Positions 3,786 through 29,888 of a stretch of 64,000 nt of DNA are shown in pieces (the first letter of the stretch is position 1; each line of letters starts with the position of its first letter). The stretch is from Paludisphaera mucosa (GTDB lineage: Bacteria; Planctomycetota; Planctomycetia; Isosphaerales; Isosphaeraceae). The translations under genes and the position numbers were made by a program. The DNA lies in the NCBI RefSeq assembly GCF_029589435.1, contig NZ_JARRAG010000002.1, forward strand, positions 4,216,001 to 4,280,000, given 5' to 3'. The notes under the pieces were generated by a model, which ran no database searches, had not been told where the DNA came from, and saw only the letters and a list, made by a program, of their open reading frames with translations.

Positions 3786-5411
<1,626 letters not shown>

Positions 5412-5483
5412 GTTGCCTTCATCTCCACAATGCAGAAGGAATGTGTCTCGTGAGGTAGGTCCGCCCGGGGGCGGTGGCTCGGC

Positions 5484-5774
5484 TCAGCCGACGACCGCGA
5501 GGATGTCGTCCTCGCGCATGAGGAGGACCTTCTTGTCGCCGTCGAGCTTGAATTCCTCGCCCGCGTACGAGGTGAAGATCACGACGTCGCCCGCCTTGAC
5601 CTGGAGCTCGCGGCGCTTGCCGTCCTTGGTCACGCGGCCGTCTCCCACCGACAGCACCGTCCCCTTCTGGGGCTTGTCCTTGGCGGTCTCCGGCAGCACG
5701 ATCCCGCCGGCGGTGGTCCCCTTGGCCTCTTCGCGCTCGACGACCACGCGATCTCCCAACGGCTTCAGATTCAT
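5484..5774 (-). CDS. groS: co-chaperonin GroES (Hsp10)
   Basis: A 96-residue co-chaperonin starting MNLKPLGDRVVVE, the classical N-terminus, so the start at 5774 is preferred to longer in-frame extensions. The mobile loop (KGTTAGGIVLPETAKDKP) that docks on GroEL and the C-terminal strand (MREDDILAVVG) are intact. It caps the GroEL ring in an ATP-dependent way. First gene of the groES-groEL operon. The roughly 290 bp upstream hold the promoter, but I could not fix its -35/-10 elements. Confidence 0.97.
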   Translation of the reverse strand: MNLKPLGDRVVVEREEAKGTTAGGIVLPETAKDKPQKGTVLSVGDGRVTKDGKRRELQVKAGDVVIFTSYAGEEFKLDGDKKVLLMREDDILAVVG

Positions 5775-6065
5775 CGGTCCTTGGCTCCTCTTCGACGTCT
5801 CGCTTCGATCCCGTCTCGACCTCGCGCCCGCCGCACCCGTCCGTCCAACGAACCCGCGACGCGGCCCGCGCGACACCATGACATGACCTCTGCATAAGCA
5901 AGGGTCGTGCCGACGCCCAATTCGAAACGCAAGTCCTTTCACATAATGGCTTTTCTAAAATCAACGATGTCGCCCGCCGAGAGCCTACGCCCTGCCGGAC
6001 GCGGCATCGGGCGGGCTCCCCATGTCATTTTGGCAGGGAGCGGCGTTTTCCGACTCGGCGACGGC

Positions 6066-6977
6066 TCAGGCCGCGCCGGCCGTCGCGAGCACGAGCCGGC
6101 GGGCGTTCTCGGCGAGGAGGAGCGGGGCCCCGGCGACGGGGAAGGTCGCGACGGCCCAGGCGACGAGCTTGTCGACGTCGTCCAGCTCGGGCGGGACGTC
6201 GTCGGAGGCCAGGAAGTCGGTGGCGACCCCGATGCCTTCGTAGCCGGCCCGGCCGCGGAAGGGCAGGGCGGCGAGGCCCTCGACGACGCCCCGGAAGGCC
6301 TCGACCGAGGTCCTGGGGCTCACGCCGATCGTCGCGCCGAGGCTGCGGAGGCGGCGGACGAGGTCCGGCCCTAGGGCGTCGACGTCGCCGGCCGCATGCA
6401 CGAGCGGGAGCCGCTGAGGCCGGGCGCCGTCGGCCTCGAACCAGTCCAGAACGTCCGCGACCGTCCGGGCGTCGGCCCCGCCCAGGTCGAGGGCCGGTCG
6501 AGGGCCGGGGCCGGCCGGGGCCAGTTCGAGCAGCCGTTCGAGGAACGCGGGGCCGAGTTCGCCGGCGACGGGCCCGAAGAGGCGGACGCCGCGCCCGAAG
6601 AGGCCGGCGAGGCGGTCGAGATCGGCCGGCGTGCGGATCAGGGCGTCGAGGCCGTCGACGGCGAGCACGCCCCAGCAGAGGCCCCACTGGGGCTCGGCCC
6701 GCCAGCGGGCCACGTCCTCGGGCCCGTGCAGGAGGCGGCCGGAGAACTCGGCCGCGTAGCCGGCGAGCATCTCGCCGAGCGCGTGCCAGGGATCCGCCTG
6801 GCGGGCCCAGTCGGCCGGCTTGCGGCGGCTGCCGAGCACGGCCAGCGACGTCCCCATCAGGTAGCCGTCCAGGCGGGCCAGCCGGGCGGGGATCTCGGCG
6901 TACTCGGCGGGGTCGTACTGGCTGCTCTCGGCGGCGTACTGGAGGGCCCAGTCGCACCGCAGGTCGATCAATCGCAT
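6066..6977 (-). CDS. M19 dipeptidase-like protein, probably catalytically degenerate
   Basis: The 303-residue protein has the outline of renal-dipeptidase-type (peptidase M19) TIM barrels: N-terminal DLRCDW where active members have DxHxD, a central WGVLAVDGLDAL segment, LVHAAGDVDAL, GATIGVSP, and a C-terminal IGVATDFLASDD with downstream ENARRLV, which matches the closing family signature. The first metal-binding histidine is replaced by Arg and other ligands are not evident, so zinc-dependent dipeptidase activity is doubtful. No signal peptide. It follows a secreted unknown protein by 25 bp and is probably co-transcribed with it. Confidence 0.65.
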   Translation of the reverse strand: MRLIDLRCDWALQYAAESSQYDPAEYAEIPARLARLDGYLMGTSLAVLGSRRKPADWARQADPWHALGEMLAGYAAEFSGRLLHGPEDVARWRAEPQWGLCWGVLAVDGLDALIRTPADLDRLAGLFGRGVRLFGPVAGELGPAFLERLLELAPAGPGPRPALDLGGADARTVADVLDWFEADGARPQRLPLVHAAGDVDALGPDLVRRLRSLGATIGVSPRTSVEAFRGVVEGLAALPFRGRAGYEGIGVATDFLASDDVPPELDDVDKLVAWAVATFPVAGAPLLLAENARRLVLATAGAA

Positions 6978-16581: not shown

Positions 16582-17397
16582 ATGCCCGCCTATATCGACC
16601 CCCACATCCATATGGTCTCCCGCACCACGGACGACTACAAGCGGATGGCGCTGGCGGGGTGCGTGATGGTCAGCGAGCCGGCCTTCTGGGCGGGTTTCGA
16701 CCGCTCGGGGGTTGAGGGCTTCCGCGACTACTTCCGCCAGCTCATCGAGTTCGAGGCCCGTCGCGCCGAGGCGTACGGGATCCAGCACTATTGCTGGCTC
16801 TGCATCAACGCCAAGGAGGCGGAGGACGTCGCCCTGGCGCGGCAGGTCGTCGCCATGATCCCCGAGTTCCTGGACCATCCCAGGGTGCTGGGGATCGGCG
16901 AGATCGGGCTCAACAAGAACACGAAGAACGAGGCCACGGTCTTCCTCGACCACCTGGACCTGGCCGCCCGGACGGACGAGCTGATCCTGGTCCACACGCC
17001 CCACCTGGCGGACAAATACCAGGGGACGCGGATGATCCTCGACATGATCAAGGGCGACGGCCGGATCCGCCCCGAACGGGTCTGCATCGACCACGTCGAG
17101 GAGCACACGATCCGCGCGGCGCTCGACGCCGGCTGCTGGGTGGGGATGACCCTCTACCCGATCTCCAAATGCACGCCGGCCCGCGCCGCGGACATGGTGG
17201 AGTCCTACGGCGCGGACCGGGTGATGGTGAATTCGGCCGGCGATTGGGGGCATAGCGACCCGCTCGCGGTGCCGGAGTTCATCTTCGAGATGCGGCGTCG
17301 GGGCCACGACGAGGGCCTGATCCGGAAGGTGGTCCTCGAGAACCCGCGGGAATTCTTCTCCCAGAGCCGGCGCTTCTCGACCGCTACGGCGACTTGA
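16582..17397 (+). CDS. TatD-family metal hydrolase, EboB-like
   Basis: The 271-residue TIM-barrel protein has DPHIH at residues 6-10, [25 protein letters not shown] and [14 protein letters not shown], which together supply the metal ligands of the TatD group. The specific wording ([40 protein letters not shown]) is that of the EboB branch found in ebo gene clusters. Those clusters also encode a UbiA-like protein (EboC) and a TIM-barrel isomerase (EboE), and are linked to moving or maturing metabolite precursors. UbiA and TIM-barrel genes occur 6 kb away. True TatD DNase activity is less likely. The subfamily assignment is from memory of the family. Confidence 0.75.
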
Positions 17398-22642: not shown

Positions 22643-23482
22643 CTACGGCCGGAGCAACGGGGAGAGGAAGCCGTGGGCCCGGCGCAGGGCCTCGGCCCCC
22701 ATGTGGCTGTGCCGGCTCAGCTCGACGTGCAGGCCGCCGCGATAATCGACGTCGCGGAGGGCCTGCAGGATCGGCGGGAAGTCCATCGTCCCCTCGCCGA
22801 ACATCAGGTGCTCGTGGACGCCTTCGACCATGTCCTCGATGTGGACGTTGGCGATCCGCGGCCCCCACTTCCGGACGTGATCCCCGATCGGCCCGGCCTC
22901 GTTGCAGTGGACGTGGCCGACGTCGACCGTCAGGTCGAACAGAGGGTGCGCCACGCGCTCGTCGAGCCGGGCGAACCGCTCGAACGTGTCGATGAACATG
23001 CCCGGCTCGGGCTCGAACGCCAGCCGCACGCCCTGCGCCTCGGCGTGCTCGACCACCGGCCGGAGCGCGGCGGCGAGGCGGTCCATCGCCGGCTCCTCGG
23101 CCGAGCCGTCGCGAAGCGCGCCCGACCAGAACGAGACGGCGGAGGCGTCGAGCGCCACGGCCGCGTCGATCGCGCGACGTAGGAAGTCGACCCGCAGGGC
23201 GCGGCGGACCGGGTCCGGATCCATCAACGTCGGGTCGTGCTTCGCCCGGGGGTTGATCAGGAATCGCGCGCCGGTCTCCACCACCCGCCCCAGACCGAGG
23301 CCGTCGAGCAGGTCGCGGATCGTCGCGGCCTGACGGGCGAGCGCGGCCGGATCCTCATACGGGTCGAGCGCGCCGGCGTCGAGGGTGATCGCCGCGCTCT
23401 TGTATCCCTCATCGGCCATCAACCTGAGGGCGTCGGACAGGCGGTGATGGGCCAGGCCGTTGGTGTTGTAACCCAGGAGCAT
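22643..23482 (-). CDS. sugar phosphate isomerase/epimerase-type TIM-barrel protein (2)
   Basis: The 279-residue protein is of the xylose-isomerase-like TIM-barrel superfamily: N-terminal GYNTNGLAHHRLSDAL, VRLAFEPEPGMFIDTFE (glutamate ligand), LTVDVGHVHC (aspartate and histidine ligands), NVHIEDMVEGVHEH and a final HVELSRHSH. The metal site is therefore complete. It is the last gene of a four-gene operon, 18 bp after the UbiA gene. Candidate reactions are isomerisation or epimerisation of an inositol- or sugar-derived ketone; the EboE and IolE/IolI proteins belong to the same superfamily. Exact activity unknown. Confidence 0.85.
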   Translation of the reverse strand: MLLGYNTNGLAHHRLSDALRLMADEGYKSAAITLDAGALDPYEDPAALARQAATIRDLLDGLGLGRVVETGARFLINPRAKHDPTLMDPDPVRRALRVDFLRRAIDAAVALDASAVSFWSGALRDGSAEEPAMDRLAAALRPVVEHAEAQGVRLAFEPEPGMFIDTFERFARLDERVAHPLFDLTVDVGHVHCNEAGPIGDHVRKWGPRIANVHIEDMVEGVHEHLMFGEGTMDFPPILQALRDVDYRGGLHVELSRHSHMGAEALRRAHGFLSPLLRP

Positions 23483-23500
23483 GGCGGGGGCGTCCTCGCG

Positions 23501-24412
23501 TCAGGTGGCGTAGAGGCGGCGGGCCAGCAGGAACGCCGGAATCCAGAGGACGGCGACCGCCAGGGCCGTCAACGGCCCCCGCGCCGAGGCGACGAGCGCC
23601 ACGTCGAGCCAGACCAGCGACAGCACCCCGGTCTTCACCGCCTTCTGGATCAGCGCCGGGGTGGGCTCGCGCAGGGCGCGCGCGGCCGCCAGGTGGACCG
23701 CCGTCGCGACCAGGCCCAGCGCGAGCAGGCCCGGCACGGGGAAGGGGCGGTCGGTCGAGGGATGCGGGAATCGTCCCGGCATGAGCGCGACGGCGGCCAG
23801 GGCCAATAGTGCGACGTCCTGGATCGCCAGCCCGACGACCAGGTTGCGCTTTCCGCCGCCGCGGGCTTCCGACCGGCTGATCCACGTCACGCCGGCGACG
23901 AACACCCCGAACGCCCCCGCCGCCAGCCACGCCGCGGGCCCGCCGAGCGCGGTCGCGGAAGCCATGCCCAGCAGCATGTTCAGGGCCCGGCACGAGCCCA
24001 TCGCCCAGGGGCCGAGGGACGTGTGCTTGAGCCCCGCGTTGTAGGCGACGATCATCGCGGCCAGCGCCGCGGCGACGGCGAACGTCGGCGTGGCCGGGCC
24101 GCCGCCGAGGGCGGCCAGGGCAAGCCCCAGTGTCAGGCCCCCCCAGCCGATCGCCGCGGCGACGCCGGCCGCCACCATGCCCGACGGCAACGGGCGGCCG
24201 GGACGCTCGGCGCGGTCGACTTCGAGATCGAACCAGTCGTTGAGCGCCATGCCCGCCGCGTAGAGGGCCATCGACGCCGCCGCGAGCGGCAGCCAGCCGG
24301 CGACGTCGCCGAAGGCCCCGCCGACGAGCAGCCAACCCGCGAGGCTGTCGGCCGCGGCGGTGAAGACGTTCGGCAGCCGGATGAGCTGGAGGACCGGCTT
24401 GACGGGCCTCAT
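23501..24412 (-). CDS. UbiA-family prenyltransferase (EboC-like)
   Basis: The 303-residue integral membrane protein has about eight to nine hydrophobic helices and the first Asp-rich motif NDWFDLEVDRAERPGRPLPSG (20 residues from NDWF), which binds Mg-prenyl diphosphate. The second Asp-rich loop is degenerate (YNAGLKHTSLGPWAMGSCR), as in several UbiA-like proteins outside ubiquinone synthesis, including EboC-type proteins. The start at 24412 overlaps the stop of the upstream TIM-barrel gene by 4 bp (ATGA), which implies translational coupling. Neighbouring inositol-phosphate synthase and isomerase genes suggest that the prenyl acceptor is a cyclitol or related polyol; this is inference. Confidence 0.85.
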   Translation of the reverse strand: MRPVKPVLQLIRLPNVFTAAADSLAGWLLVGGAFGDVAGWLPLAAASMALYAAGMALNDWFDLEVDRAERPGRPLPSGMVAAGVAAAIGWGGLTLGLALAALGGGPATPTFAVAAALAAMIVAYNAGLKHTSLGPWAMGSCRALNMLLGMASATALGGPAAWLAAGAFGVFVAGVTWISRSEARGGGKRNLVVGLAIQDVALLALAAVALMPGRFPHPSTDRPFPVPGLLALGLVATAVHLAAARALREPTPALIQKAVKTGVLSLVWLDVALVASARGPLTALAVAVLWIPAFLLARRLYAT

Positions 24413-25248
24413 CCGATCAGGGGCTTCAGGACGTCGTAGGCCCGCTTCGCCGCGACGTCCGGGTCGTCCTGGAACGGATACAGCTCGACCGTCAGCCAGC
24501 CGTCGTAGCCGGTCGCCTTGATCGCCGAGACGACCTCGGCGAAGTCGATGACGCCGTCGCCGGGGATCATGTGGTGGTGGACCCGCGTCGCGGCGATGTC
24601 CTCCAGGTGGTAATGCCGCGTCAGGGGCGCGAGCGCGGCGACGGCCTTCGGCAGGTCCTCGCTCATGCAGAAGGCGTGGCCGACGTCGAAGTTCAGCCCC
24701 AGCGCGGGCGAGTCCACGCGCTCGTGGATCTCGACGTACTGATCGGTCCGCTCCAGCAGCAGCTCGGGCTCGGGCTCGATCAGGAGCAGGATCCCCAGCT
24801 TCGCGGCGTGCTCGGCGAGGGGCTTCAGGATCTCGACGAAGAGGTCGACGGCCTGGGCGCGCGACATCCCCGGCGGGATCGGCCCGGCCGGCTCGGTGGT
24901 GATGTGGGGCGCGCCCAGCTCGGCGCAGAGGTCGAGCGCGCGGCGCGTGTGGTCGATCCGCACGCGCCGGTAGCTCGGGTCGGGCTCCAGGAACGACGGG
25001 TGCCAGTACGGCTGGCGATGGTCGGCCACCGCGTTCATCATGAACGCGTTGATATTCGAGAACGCCAGATGGTTCTTCGCCATGGCCTCGCGGATCGCCC
25101 GCTTGGGCCCTTCGAGCAGGCCCGCCGGCCAGGCGTGGGGGACGTCGGCCAGCAGTTCGAGCCCGTCGTACCCGACCGCCGCGATCCGGGCGGCGGTCTC
25201 GTCGAACGGGTGCTTCAAGTACGCGTTGGAGCTGAAGGCGAGTTTCAC
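24409..25248 (-). CDS. sugar phosphate isomerase/epimerase-type TIM-barrel protein (1)
   Basis: The 279-residue TIM-barrel protein begins MKLAFSSNAYLKHPFDET and carries the xylose-isomerase-like ligands: ILLLIEPEPELLLE (Glu), LGLNFDVGHAFC (Asp, His), HYHLEDIAATRVHHH and WLTVELYPF. It differs from its partner at 22643, to which it is only distantly similar, so the two probably act on different intermediates. It is the second gene after inositol-3-phosphate synthase, 54 bp downstream, and is coupled to ubiA through an ATGA overlap. Confidence 0.85.
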   Translation of the reverse strand: MKLAFSSNAYLKHPFDETAARIAAVGYDGLELLADVPHAWPAGLLEGPKRAIREAMAKNHLAFSNINAFMMNAVADHRQPYWHPSFLEPDPSYRRVRIDHTRRALDLCAELGAPHITTEPAGPIPPGMSRAQAVDLFVEILKPLAEHAAKLGILLLIEPEPELLLERTDQYVEIHERVDSPALGLNFDVGHAFCMSEDLPKAVAALAPLTRHYHLEDIAATRVHHHMIPGDGVIDFAEVVSAIKATGYDGWLTVELYPFQDDPDVAAKRAYDVLKPLIG

Positions 25249-25302
25249 GAGGGGCGTCCGTCGGGGGTCGGGAGTTCGTCCGGGGGATGTCGTCGAACCG
25301 CC

Positions 25303-26517
25303 TCAGCGCGGCTCCGCCTTCACGGCCGCGACGTAGGCCTCGAGGCGGGCGAACTGCTTGAAGAAGTCGTTCTCCGGGTCGCCCTCGGGGCCCTTGAAGA
25401 AGCAGGAGAGGTGCCTCATGAGGCCCTTGCCGCCGCGGCGCTTCTCCAGGTCGGCCAGACGGGCGAGGTCGACGCCGAGGGGGGCGGCGAGCAGGCTGTC
25501 GCAGCCCTGCCAGGTGAATTGCAGGGCCATCTTCGTGCCCAGGAAGCCCTTGAAGTGGATGTGGTCCCACGCCGTCTTCCAGTCGCCCATGTCGGGGACG
25601 TACTCGATCGAGACGACCGAGGCGGGCTTGTAGCCGAGGATCTCGGTGATGACCTTGTCCTTGGTCTCGACCTTCGACGACTTGTTGGAGGGGTCGTCGA
25701 GCACCACGCCGTCGCGGTTGCCGAAGATGTTGTGGCCGACCCAGCTCATGACCTTGAAGTTCCGCGCGGCGAACATGGGCGCCAGCACGGTCTTCATCAG
25801 GGTCTCGCCGGTCTTGCCGTCCTTGCCGGCGAAGAGCGCCCCGGTCTTCTCGGCCAGCGCCCACGCGGCGGGGAACGACCCCCCCAGGCTGGGCGTGAAG
25901 TTCAGGTAGGTGTGGCCGCCCCGGAAGGCGGCCAGGGCGTACAGGCTGCTGGAGGGGAGGACCGCGTCGCCCGGCCGGTCCAGGACGGCCTCGAGGGCGT
26001 CGGGCGACTCGTGGGCCGCGGCGGTGCGGAAGGGGGGCTCGGTGCTGGAGACGTTCAGGACGATGAGGTGGTCGACCTTCTCGGCCTCGACGAAGGCGGC
26101 GAGGTCGGCCTCGATGCGGTCGATCGCCTGGCGGGCCGTGCCGGGGGCCGCGTCCGCGTCCCAGTCGCCGAGCTTCGCCACGGTGGGGCTCAGGCCGTAG
26201 CGGGGGGCGGGCCGGACGCGGGCGGAAGCCGCGGCGAGGTCGTCGCGGCAGGCGCTCAGCCAGTCGGCGTCGAACACGCCGGATGCGCCTCGGAACTCCT
26301 CGGCCGAGGCCGCGAAGGTCGTCTCGCGGATCTCGTGGCCGCCGACGACGAAGTCGCCGGGGGCGGGCAGGGGGAGGTCCCGGAAGGCCGGCAGGTCGGT
26401 CGTCAGCCCCGTCTGATCCACCAGGCCCTTCGCCATCGCCGCGAGGCCGACCGTGATCGTCGTCCCGACGCCGCCGAAGGCTCCCACGAGCCAGAGTCCA
26501 ACACGCCGACTCGCCAT
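25303..26517 (-). CDS. ino1: inositol-3-phosphate synthase
   Basis: The 404-residue protein carries the NAD-binding start VGLWLVGAFGGVGTTI, the family sections LIVLNVSSTEPP, YLNFTPSLGGSFPAAW, KTGETLMKTVLAPMFAARN and SWVGHNIFGNRDG, and the catalytic lysine region NKSSKVETKDKVI. It converts glucose 6-phosphate to 1D-myo-inositol 3-phosphate in the cytoplasm using tightly bound NAD. First gene of the operon with two TIM-barrel proteins and a UbiA prenyltransferase, so its product is probably the starting point of that pathway rather than of phosphatidylinositol alone. The start is at 26517. Confidence 0.93.
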   Translation of the reverse strand: MASRRVGLWLVGAFGGVGTTITVGLAAMAKGLVDQTGLTTDLPAFRDLPLPAPGDFVVGGHEIRETTFAASAEEFRGASGVFDADWLSACRDDLAAASARVRPAPRYGLSPTVAKLGDWDADAAPGTARQAIDRIEADLAAFVEAEKVDHLIVLNVSSTEPPFRTAAAHESPDALEAVLDRPGDAVLPSSSLYALAAFRGGHTYLNFTPSLGGSFPAAWALAEKTGALFAGKDGKTGETLMKTVLAPMFAARNFKVMSWVGHNIFGNRDGVVLDDPSNKSSKVETKDKVITEILGYKPASVVSIEYVPDMGDWKTAWDHIHFKGFLGTKMALQFTWQGCDSLLAAPLGVDLARLADLEKRRGGKGLMRHLSCFFKGPEGDPENDFFKQFARLEAYVAAVKAEPR

Positions 26518-28136: not shown

Positions 28137-28223
28137 CCGATTTCCGGGCCGCAGGGGGAGGCCCCGCGTCGGACTTCGGGAATCGTCGGAAAAATATCGG
28201 CCGTGGTCCGTCGAACGCTCTCC

Positions 28224-29888
28224 ATGAGCACACATAACACCATGATCGACCGACGATCCGACCTGGACGCCCTTCGGGCCGGCGCCATGCTGCTGGGGAT
28301 CGCCCTGCACGCCAGCCTGTCGTTCTTCCCGGCGTACTGGGTGGTCTCGGATCGCAGCCAGGAGCCCGCTTTCGGGCTGCTCTTCTCGGCCGTCCACGGC
28401 TTCCGGATGCCGCTCTTCTTCGTGATGAGCGGCTACTTCAGCGCGATGCTGCTGCACCGGCGGGGCCGGGCGGCGCTGGTGGAACACCGGTTCCGCCGGG
28501 TGTTCCTCCCCCTCCTCGCGGGGATGGTCACGATCGTCCCGCTCACGATGGGGATCTCCACCCTCGCGATGACCTCCGCCCCGCGGAAGGCCGGCGGCAC
28601 GGCCCCGGCGGCGGGCGCGTCGACGATCTGGACGGCCGCGCGATCCGGTGATCTGGACGCCGTGGAGCTGCACCTGAAGAACGGTGCGGCGGTGGACGCC
28701 TTCGACCCCGATCGCGGCGGCACGCCCATGATGTGGGCCGCGGTCGCCGGTCGCGCGGAGGCCGTCCAGCGACTGATCGATCGGGGCGCGGACGTGAACG
28801 CCGCCGGACGTGACGGCGGGACGGCCTTGCACGGAGCGGCCTTCCTGGGTCACGAGAGGACGGTCGATGTGCTCATCCGCAACGGCGCGGATCTCAACGT
28901 GGCGAACAAGGACGGCAGCACGCCCCTCGATACGGCGGTCCTCGACGAGGGGACGACGCGCTACTTCGCATCCGTGCTCCAGCTCGACCTCGACGAGAAC
29001 GACCTCGGCCGCCGGAAGGCTGCGATCGCCGAGACCTTGCGACACCACGGAGCGACCGCAGGGAGGAAGTCCGGCCTCGCGGACATCCTCATGCAGATGC
29101 CCCTCTTCAACCACCTCTGGTTCCTGTGGTTCCTCTGGTGGTTGGTGCTCGGGCTGGCGGCCGTCTCCGCCCTCGGGTCGCGACTGCCGACCATCCAACC
29201 GCCGGCCTGGATGGCCCGATCGCCGGGCCGCTATCTCTGGCTCATCCCCCTGACGATGATCCCCCAGTGGTTCATGGGAGACGGAGGCGACCCCCCGTTC
29301 TTCGGGCCGGACACCTCGTCGGGCCTGCTGCCGATCCCGCACGTCCTGGCCTACTACGCGGTCTTCTTCGGATTCGGAGCCCTCGATTTCGGGGTCGACG
29401 ACCGGACCGGCCGCGTGGACGAGCGATGGTGGCTCCCGCTGGCGATCGGGCTCCTCGTCGTCTTCCCGCTGGGCACGGCCCTGAACGCGGGATGGGCCGG
29501 GCCGCCGGGCTTCGCTCTCGATCCCTCGGCGCGACGGCTCCTCTCGGTCTTCCTGCAGGCGGCCTACCCCTGGCTGATCACCTTCGGCCTCATGGGGCTG
29601 TTCCGGAGGATCTGCCCGGTCGAGAGCCCGACGATGCGCTACCTGTCGGACTCGGCCTACTGGCTCTACCTCGCGCACCTGCCGCTGATCATCGGGGCCC
29701 AGTACGTGGTGAGGGACTGGCCGCTGCCGGCCGCGGCCAAGTTCCTGCTCGTCGTCGCGGCCTCGACCGCCCTGCTGCTGCTGAGCTACCAGACCCTGGT
29801 GCGTTATACGTGGATCGGGCGCCTGCTCAACGGCCCGCGCGTCCGGCCGGCGGCCGGCTCGGAAGGCCTGGCGGTCCCGGCTCAATAG
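28224..29888 (+). CDS. OpgC-like acyltransferase-3 with inserted ankyrin repeats
   Basis: The ends are a membrane acyltransferase of the OpgC/acyltransferase-3 type: DLDALRAGAMLLGIALHASL in the first helix with its catalytic-type histidine, HGFRMPLFFVMSGYFSAML, RFRRVFLPLLAG, and from about residue 290 onward several more helices (HLWFLWFLWWLVLG, LAYYAVFFGFGALDF, YWLYLAHLPLIIGAQYV). Between helices 3 and 4 (residues about 130-270) lie some four ankyrin repeats (GTPMMWAAVAGRAEAVQRLI, GTALHGAAFLGHERTVDVLI, GSTPLDTAVLD). The insert would hang in one loop and could bind a partner. The start could also be 28242. The 3' end overlaps the pfk gene by 7 bp. Confidence 0.85.
   Translation: MSTHNTMIDRRSDLDALRAGAMLLGIALHASLSFFPAYWVVSDRSQEPAFGLLFSAVHGFRMPLFFVMSGYFSAMLLHRRGRAALVEHRFRRVFLPLLAGMVTIVPLTMGISTLAMTSAPRKAGGTAPAAGASTIWTAARSGDLDAVELHLKNGAAVDAFDPDRGGTPMMWAAVAGRAEAVQRLIDRGADVNAAGRDGGTALHGAAFLGHERTVDVLIRNGADLNVANKDGSTPLDTAVLDEGTTRYFASVLQLDLDENDLGRRKAAIAETLRHHGATAGRKSGLADILMQMPLFNHLWFLWFLWWLVLGLAAVSALGSRLPTIQPPAWMARSPGRYLWLIPLTMIPQWFMGDGGDPPFFGPDTSSGLLPIPHVLAYYAVFFGFGALDFGVDDRTGRVDERWWLPLAIGLLVVFPLGTALNAGWAGPPGFALDPSARRLLSVFLQAAYPWLITFGLMGLFRRICPVESPTMRYLSDSAYWLYLAHLPLIIGAQYVVRDWPLPAAAKFLLVVAASTALLLLSYQTLVRYTWIGRLLNGPRVRPAAGSEGLAVPAQ

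Follow-up and report, generated by a model that had tools for sequence, protein, structure and literature searches.

An ino1-led operon of Paludisphaera mucosa as the probable core of an ebo-type pathway in which inositol-phosphate synthase replaces EboD

Introduction

Why should a gene for inositol-1(3)-phosphate synthase (Ino1) head an operon that otherwise encodes a UbiA-family prenyltransferase and two xylose-isomerase-like TIM barrels? Such an operon lies at 22643-26517 of a 64,000-nucleotide stretch of Paludisphaera mucosa DNA (NZ_JARRAG010000002.1, positions 4,216,001 to 4,280,000; the whole stretch is called the window below). An initial annotation suggested that it could be an undescribed pathway to a prenylated or membrane-linked cyclitol, with proteins that recall those of the ebo clusters. 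We found instead that the operon is probably the core of an ebo-type pathway, in which Ino1 would serve as the source of the cyclitol and replace the dehydroquinate-synthase-like enzyme EboD.

The ebo genes span many phyla and algal plastids. They are needed in Nostoc for the passage of scytonemin precursors to the periplasm and in Pseudomonas for nematode repellence (PMC6282210). A prenylated or membrane-linked cyclitol has already been proposed for EboD-type ebo clusters (PMC5133447, PMC6282210), and clusters without EboA are known (PMC5133447). A 2016 study found the ebo genes unclustered in three Planctomycetes, with eboD missing in two of them (PMC5133447). The word inositol is absent from that paper. 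We found no paper linking ebo to inositol in the open-access literature, where absence is not proof, nor any functional account of SCO3241-3243 in the same literature.

Results

Layout of the operon

Positions, order, overlap and protein families of the four genes were all as first annotated. The features on which the analysis rests are the following:

26517-25303, minus strand: ino1, inositol-1(3)-phosphate synthase (404 aa; PF07994 and PF01658)
25248-24409, minus strand: TIM1, xylose-isomerase-like metal-dependent TIM barrel (279 aa, GTG start; PF01261)
24412-23501, minus strand: UbiA-family prenyltransferase of the EboC/SCO3242 type (303 aa; PF01040)
23482-22643, minus strand: TIM2, second xylose-isomerase-like TIM barrel (279 aa; PF01261)
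16582-17397, plus strand: TatD-family hydrolase, counterpart of EboB (PF01026)

The operon runs ino1, TIM1, UbiA, TIM2, with intergenic distances of 54 bp, -4 bp and 18 bp; the negative value is an ATGA in which the ATG of UbiA overlaps the TGA of TIM1. Active-site signatures of the four enzymes and of TatD gave no sign of decay. The genome itself (G000, 8.2 Mb) encodes a single Ino1 and a single close UbiA of the EboC-like type.

Ino1 and EboD exclude each other in Planctomycetota

Among 199 planctomycete genomes, Ino1 was found in 111 and EboD in 43, and both in only 2 (Fisher p=1.5e-15; the genomes are related, so this and all later p values overstate independence and are descriptive, and many of the genomes are incomplete metagenome-assembled genomes). 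An EboB-type TatD was present in 159 of the 199; 105 of these carried Ino1, 41 EboD and 2 both (p=2.5e-22). One cyclase or the other accompanied TatD in 144/159 genomes, against 8/40 genomes lacking it (p=2.8e-18). The two genomes with both cyclases, G106 and G153, have a divergent or fragmentary Ino1. Counting by families (n=81) gave 50 with Ino1, 18 with EboD and 2 with both (p=8e-7). TIM2 followed Ino1 across the phylum (91 of the 97 TIM2-positive genomes; p=7e-29) and never occurred with EboD in this sample. In planctomycetes, then, gene content shows Ino1 (with TIM2) and EboD almost excluding each other as partners of the ebo gene set, which suggests one role shared by the two. We also noted that in distant planctomycetes (L165, L166, L167, L176) some 13-15 kb separate ino1 from a UbiA gene on one contig; several families show this spacing.

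The same pattern was found within the family of the window. TIM1 was present in 41/45 genomes, and ino1 stood directly before tim1 at 13 of the 20 loci read. Ino1 was missing from 14 genomes, and 13 of these carried EboD elsewhere. Family totals were 31 genomes with Ino1 and 14 with EboD, overlapping only in G205 (p=2.6e-9); the EboD cut-off here was set between matches below 1e-80 and weaker ones above 1e-41, the latter presumed to be AroB. TIM1 was retained in 11/13 EboD-type genomes, and all seven EboD-type loci that we read (L076, L078, L079, L080, L085, L088, L089) had TIM1-UbiA and a nearby TatD but lacked TIM2. A TIM1-UbiA-TatD neighbourhood is thus common to genomes of both types. TIM2 was found in 30/31 genomes with Ino1 and 0/14 without it (p=9e-11), so that it appears to be an Ino1-specific partner that travels with Ino1. 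The four genes were kept together in the family, and also elsewhere, which the initial annotation had proposed to check.

We conclude only that cyclase switching occurred within families f1 and f2; f2, in the same class, contains genera of both kinds, with Ino1 in G048, G069, G181 and G152 and EboD in G024, G087, G105, G137 and G194. Several independent switches within the window's own family were considered but are not claimed: the TIM1 tree needs three, of which its strong branches force only one, and a single switch would also fit the UbiA tree.

Canonical and ino1-type clusters in Planctomycetota and other phyla

Canonical planctomycete clusters (L048, L043, L171, L172, L173) read TatD-UbiA-EboF-EboD-EboE; in L048 EboE scored 363 bits and the dehydroquinate-synthase model 511 bits. 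Another planctomycete locus, L161, carried ino1-TatD-TIM1-UbiA-TIM2-EboF without interruption. The Ino1 frame of that locus (G098; 5256-6452, minus strand) contains an in-frame TGA where the near relative G010 has Trp, which speaks for a draft error or decay, and recoding was rejected. A cluster on a contig labelled Candidatus Kuenenia (L257) grouped with the window's family, and the contig is probably misassigned.

The window UbiA as query gave no match in plasmid records; Streptomyces and haloarchaeal loci were recovered with Ino1. In the NCBI annotation, Streptomyces plasmids carry ino1-UbiA(SCO3242)-TIM-EboA-TatD-EboE-EboF, and ino1-type clusters of Nonomuraea and Gemmatirosa resemble these. 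In Halobaculum, TIM-UbiA-TIM-TatD is divergent from ino1-EboF. Among 80 Ino1 loci of named species, UbiA or TatD was found at 19 and a TIM homologue (>100 bits) at 32, the linked loci including those of Halorubrum, Halococcus, Haloferax, Acrocarpospora, Gemmatimonadetes, Desulfomonile and Syntrophobacteraceae. At the level of gene order, these loci establish Ino1, an EboC-like UbiA, an EboB-like TatD, an EboF-like phosphodiesterase and one or two barrels as one gene set in Planctomycetota, Actinomycetota, Gemmatimonadota, Deltaproteobacteria and Halobacteria. The association exceeds chance: TIM1 persists in nearly all genomes of the family, TatD lies by the operon at 14/20 family loci (within a fetched flank of about 8 kb), and other phyla, Archaea among them, carry the set as well. 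In view of the Streptomyces clusters with their annotated EboA and EboE, we rejected a pathway without relation to ebo; the exclusion pattern of the 199 genomes points to an ebo-type cluster in which Ino1 replaces EboD.

Two further arrangements were observed. Five loci from Syntrophobacteraceae and Desulfomonile (L185, L187, L191, L195, L198) have a tandem ino1-TIM-TIM, at about 7.8-12 kb of the locus, with neither UbiA nor TatD in the fetched flanks; the set may be dispersed there, or these genes may serve another inositol pathway. In two Streptomyces clusters a ScyD/ScyE-family gene lies directly upstream of ino1 (L092:7686-8888, L095:7678-8877), which echoes the scytonemin-ebo association of cyanobacteria.

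Ino1

The window Ino1 scored 158 bits with PF07994 and 121 bits with PF01658, and aligned end to end with the Archaeoglobus fulgidus enzyme (1u1i; phmmer E=4e-86). Four lysines (K272, K276, K304 and K365 in alignment A1, numbered by its first sequence) were invariant among the ebo-linked homologues and match the four catalytic lysines of A. fulgidus Ino1. In the Ino1 tree, which has a midpoint root only, ebo-linked and planctomycete sequences formed a supported branch apart from unlinked sequences of Archaeoglobus, Acetivibrio and methanogens, the exception being a Gemmatimonadota pair on the other side of the split. The Ino1 of the sampled relative G121 adjoined that of Blastopirellula marina, in keeping with Planctomycetota as the phylum.

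The prenyltransferase

The likeness of UbiA to EboC, also proposed at the outset, was supported: its best NCBIfam match was the EboC model at 193 bits, below the cut-off of that model, and the SCO3242 model gave 190 bits. The first motif, NDxxDxxxD (residues 58-66), was fully or almost fully conserved in 69 homologues. The second Asp motif had been described as degenerate, and indeed reads T176...R-x-E182, with Glu replacing Asp, in nearly all of the 69, so that the degeneracy is a trait of the family. The predicted fold is all-helical (predicted local distance difference test score, pLDDT, 92) and nearest to UbiA structures; by profile (E=1.5e-24) as well as by fold, the nearest solved relatives are digeranylgeranylglyceryl phosphate (DGGGP) synthases.

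Trees of the 20 family loci (L072-L091) gave different pictures for UbiA and TIM1. One branch of the UbiA tree separated the cyclase types (Shimodaira-Hasegawa-like approximate likelihood ratio test, SH-aLRT, 89), whereas TIM1 of EboD-type genomes was nested among those of the Ino1 type, with no clear sorting by cyclase. This contrast hints that UbiA may recognise the cyclitol.

The two barrels

The metal ligands E158/D188/H214/E255 of TIM1 and E157/D187/E254 of TIM2 were 98-100% conserved; the His ligand position of TIM2 was less conserved, with Gln in Actinomycetota. The acidic ligands of both barrels are of the type seen in D-tagatose 3-epimerase-type enzymes. Best matches were ketose and ketose-phosphate 3-epimerases, and profiles or structures of IolE, IolI, QuiC and AsbF scored low. 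TIM2 was 49% identical to the TIM of a Streptomyces ino1-type ebo cluster, and its model (pLDDT 90) was nearest in fold to UlaE and ketose 3-epimerases, a fold that would leave the substrate unfixed, such barrels sharing folds over many reactions. TIM1 and TIM2 have the same superfamily fold as EboE, which is xylose-isomerase-like. TIM1, which matches the EboE model weakly (22-23 bits) and persists in EboD-type relatives, is the probable counterpart or stand-in of EboE, whose canonical form was not found in the genome.

Dispersed members of the set

The TatD gene at 16582, guessed at the outset to be a separated EboB-like member, is a genuine one: TatD lies near or adjoins UbiA or ino1 in genomes of the family, other planctomycetes, Streptomyces (where it is inside the cluster), haloarchaea and Deltaproteobacteria. 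The window TatD shared 40-46% identity with the TatD proteins encoded in ebo clusters of a planctomycete, Streptomyces and Halobaculum, and its metal site (HxH, E, H, H, D) was conserved. Among solved structures its closest relative is AF_1765 of Archaeoglobus (3guw, E=2.8e-18), an uncharacterised protein that may also be an EboB-type hydrolase.

An EboF homologue (PF01663; 50% identical to Streptomyces EboF) was found unlinked to the operon, on contig C1 at about 669.6 kb. No EboD was found in the genome at E<=1e-60, the best homologue, at E=6e-33, lying in the range expected of AroB. The set of this genome thus comprises Ino1, TIM1, an EboC-like UbiA, TIM2, an EboB-like TatD and an EboF-like protein, partly dispersed, which fits the 2016 finding on planctomycete ebo genes (PMC5133447).

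Elsewhere in the window, 28203-29888 encodes an acyltransferase-3 protein whose membrane domain is interrupted midway by ankyrin repeats.

Discussion

A proposed pathway

Replacement of EboD by Ino1, with TIM2, is well supported by the gene distributions. In the pathway that we propose, Ino1 would cyclise glucose 6-phosphate to inositol phosphate, and TIM2 would epimerise or isomerise an inositol or inositol-phosphate derivative to a cyclitol accepted by the shared downstream enzymes. UbiA, in the membrane, would then move a prenyl chain from a prenyl diphosphate to a hydroxyl of the cyclitol; a hydroxyl is proposed as acceptor by analogy with DGGGP synthase, the closest relative of solved structure. 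TIM1 (in the role of EboE), TatD (EboB) and EboF would reshape or dephosphorylate the product, which would be a membrane-anchored prenyl-cyclitol acting as carrier or anchor for metabolite export across the inner membrane. The export role is proposed because Nostoc genetics assigns it to ebo (PMC6282210).

A prenylated, inositol-derived membrane compound is, by analogy, the likely product. More tentatively, we suggest that Ino1 with TIM2 could be a non-orthologous replacement of EboD in both bacteria and haloarchaea, and that the two versions could share one product, a prenyl-ether lipid of an inositol-derived cyclitol that carries or anchors exported metabolites. This would be a new class of inositol lipid, built by UbiA chemistry and not by phosphatidyl transfer.

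Several points weigh against an ebo-type assignment with Ino1 in place of EboD. The 193 bits of UbiA fall short of the curated EboC cut-off of 250, although that model gives only 159.5 bits to an EboC encoded in a canonical ebo cluster of a planctomycete. A canonical EboE (NF035939, cut-off 250) was not found in the whole genome, where only TIM1 matched, at 22 bits. No EboA was seen near the operon, and no EboA search was made in the genome. The relatedness and incompleteness of the genomes counted must also be borne in mind. Finally, the only tested EboC-type enzyme farnesylates, and prefers the aromatic acceptor 8-HQA (PMC9235831), and the split of UbiA by cyclase type may mean that the two versions make different products. 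The last two points each lead to an alternative.

In the first, the barrels would act like IolE or AsbF/QuiC, which belong to the same fold family, and turn an inositol-derived ketone into a polyhydroxybenzene by dehydration; UbiA would then C-prenylate this aromatic ring in the manner of ordinary aromatic UbiA enzymes. The preference for 8-HQA and the matches, if low-scoring, of the barrels to IolE, IolI, QuiC and AsbF are consistent with this, and EboD-like cyclases and Ino1 could both feed such an aromatising route. We nevertheless consider it unlikely: the annotated clusters showed no inositol dehydrogenase, the top matches of the barrels are 3-epimerases, and UbiA lies closer to DGGGP synthase, which forms polyol ethers, than to UbiA enzymes of the aromatic kind.

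Alternatively, the two versions could share their logic and differ in their end compounds, each UbiA being specific for its cyclitol and Ino1 with TIM2 feeding a different intermediate from that of EboD. The sorting of UbiA but not clearly of TIM1 by cyclase would be expected from this, as would the retention of EboA and EboE in Streptomyces ino1-type clusters. Against it, TIM1 and TatD are the same partners for both types within the family, TatD and EboF homologues occur with both elsewhere, and the near-perfect exclusion of Ino1 and EboD suggests one shared role, which makes separate end compounds quite improbable.

Ino1 serves phosphatidylinositol or inositol osmolytes in mycobacteria and archaea, and unlinked archaeal homologues exist, but that it does so here, standing beside UbiA and the barrels by chance or through general lipid co-regulation, is very improbable and was set aside, since Ino1 recurs with UbiA, TIM, TatD and EboF in several phyla, tracks TatD and TIM2 and excludes EboD, none of which a phospholipid role predicts.

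If Ino1 indeed replaces EboD, the swap of cyclases would be independent evidence that the ebo pathway runs via a cyclitol. The inositol precursor can be purchased and isotope-labelled, so that the ebo product would become traceable. An Ino1-type variant would also explain the scattered planctomycete ebo genes without eboD, give a role to the odd Ino1 of planctomycetes and haloarchaea, and might bring to light an inositol lipid of a new kind. This version of ebo is visible in the NCBI annotation of Streptomyces but seems undescribed in the open-access literature.

Comparison with known systems

The window Ino1 is a full-length homologue of A. fulgidus Ino1 (1u1i) with the same active-site lysines. 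Archaeoglobus-group enzymes differ in belonging to another clade from most ebo-linked Ino1s, and their fetched flanks are without UbiA, TIM or TatD. The archaeal UbiA enzyme DGGGP synthase (6m31/7bpu), the closest solved structure to the window UbiA, transfers a prenyl group onto a hydroxyl of a phosphorylated polyol and makes the ether bonds of archaeal lipids; it is only about 20% identical, and in ebo-type enzymes its second Asp motif is replaced by T...R-x-E.

With the ebo cluster eboABCDEF of eustigmatophyte plastids and bacteria (PMC5133447, PMC6282210), the gene set of this genome has in common an EboC-like UbiA, the TatD-type EboB, a xylose-isomerase-like barrel, the phosphodiesterase EboF and a cyclitol-forming enzyme. 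It differs in using the NAD-dependent Ino1 fold as cyclitol source, where canonical clusters use the dehydroquinate-synthase-like EboD, and in having the extra barrel TIM2 while a canonical EboE was not found in the genome. The SCO3242-family loci of Streptomyces (NCBIfam NF045897) have ino1 directly before UbiA and a TIM2-like barrel, followed by EboA, TatD, EboE and EboF. Compared with these, the operon of the window is without EboA and EboE and carries TIM1 in addition, with TatD 5 kb away and EboF encoded elsewhere in the genome.

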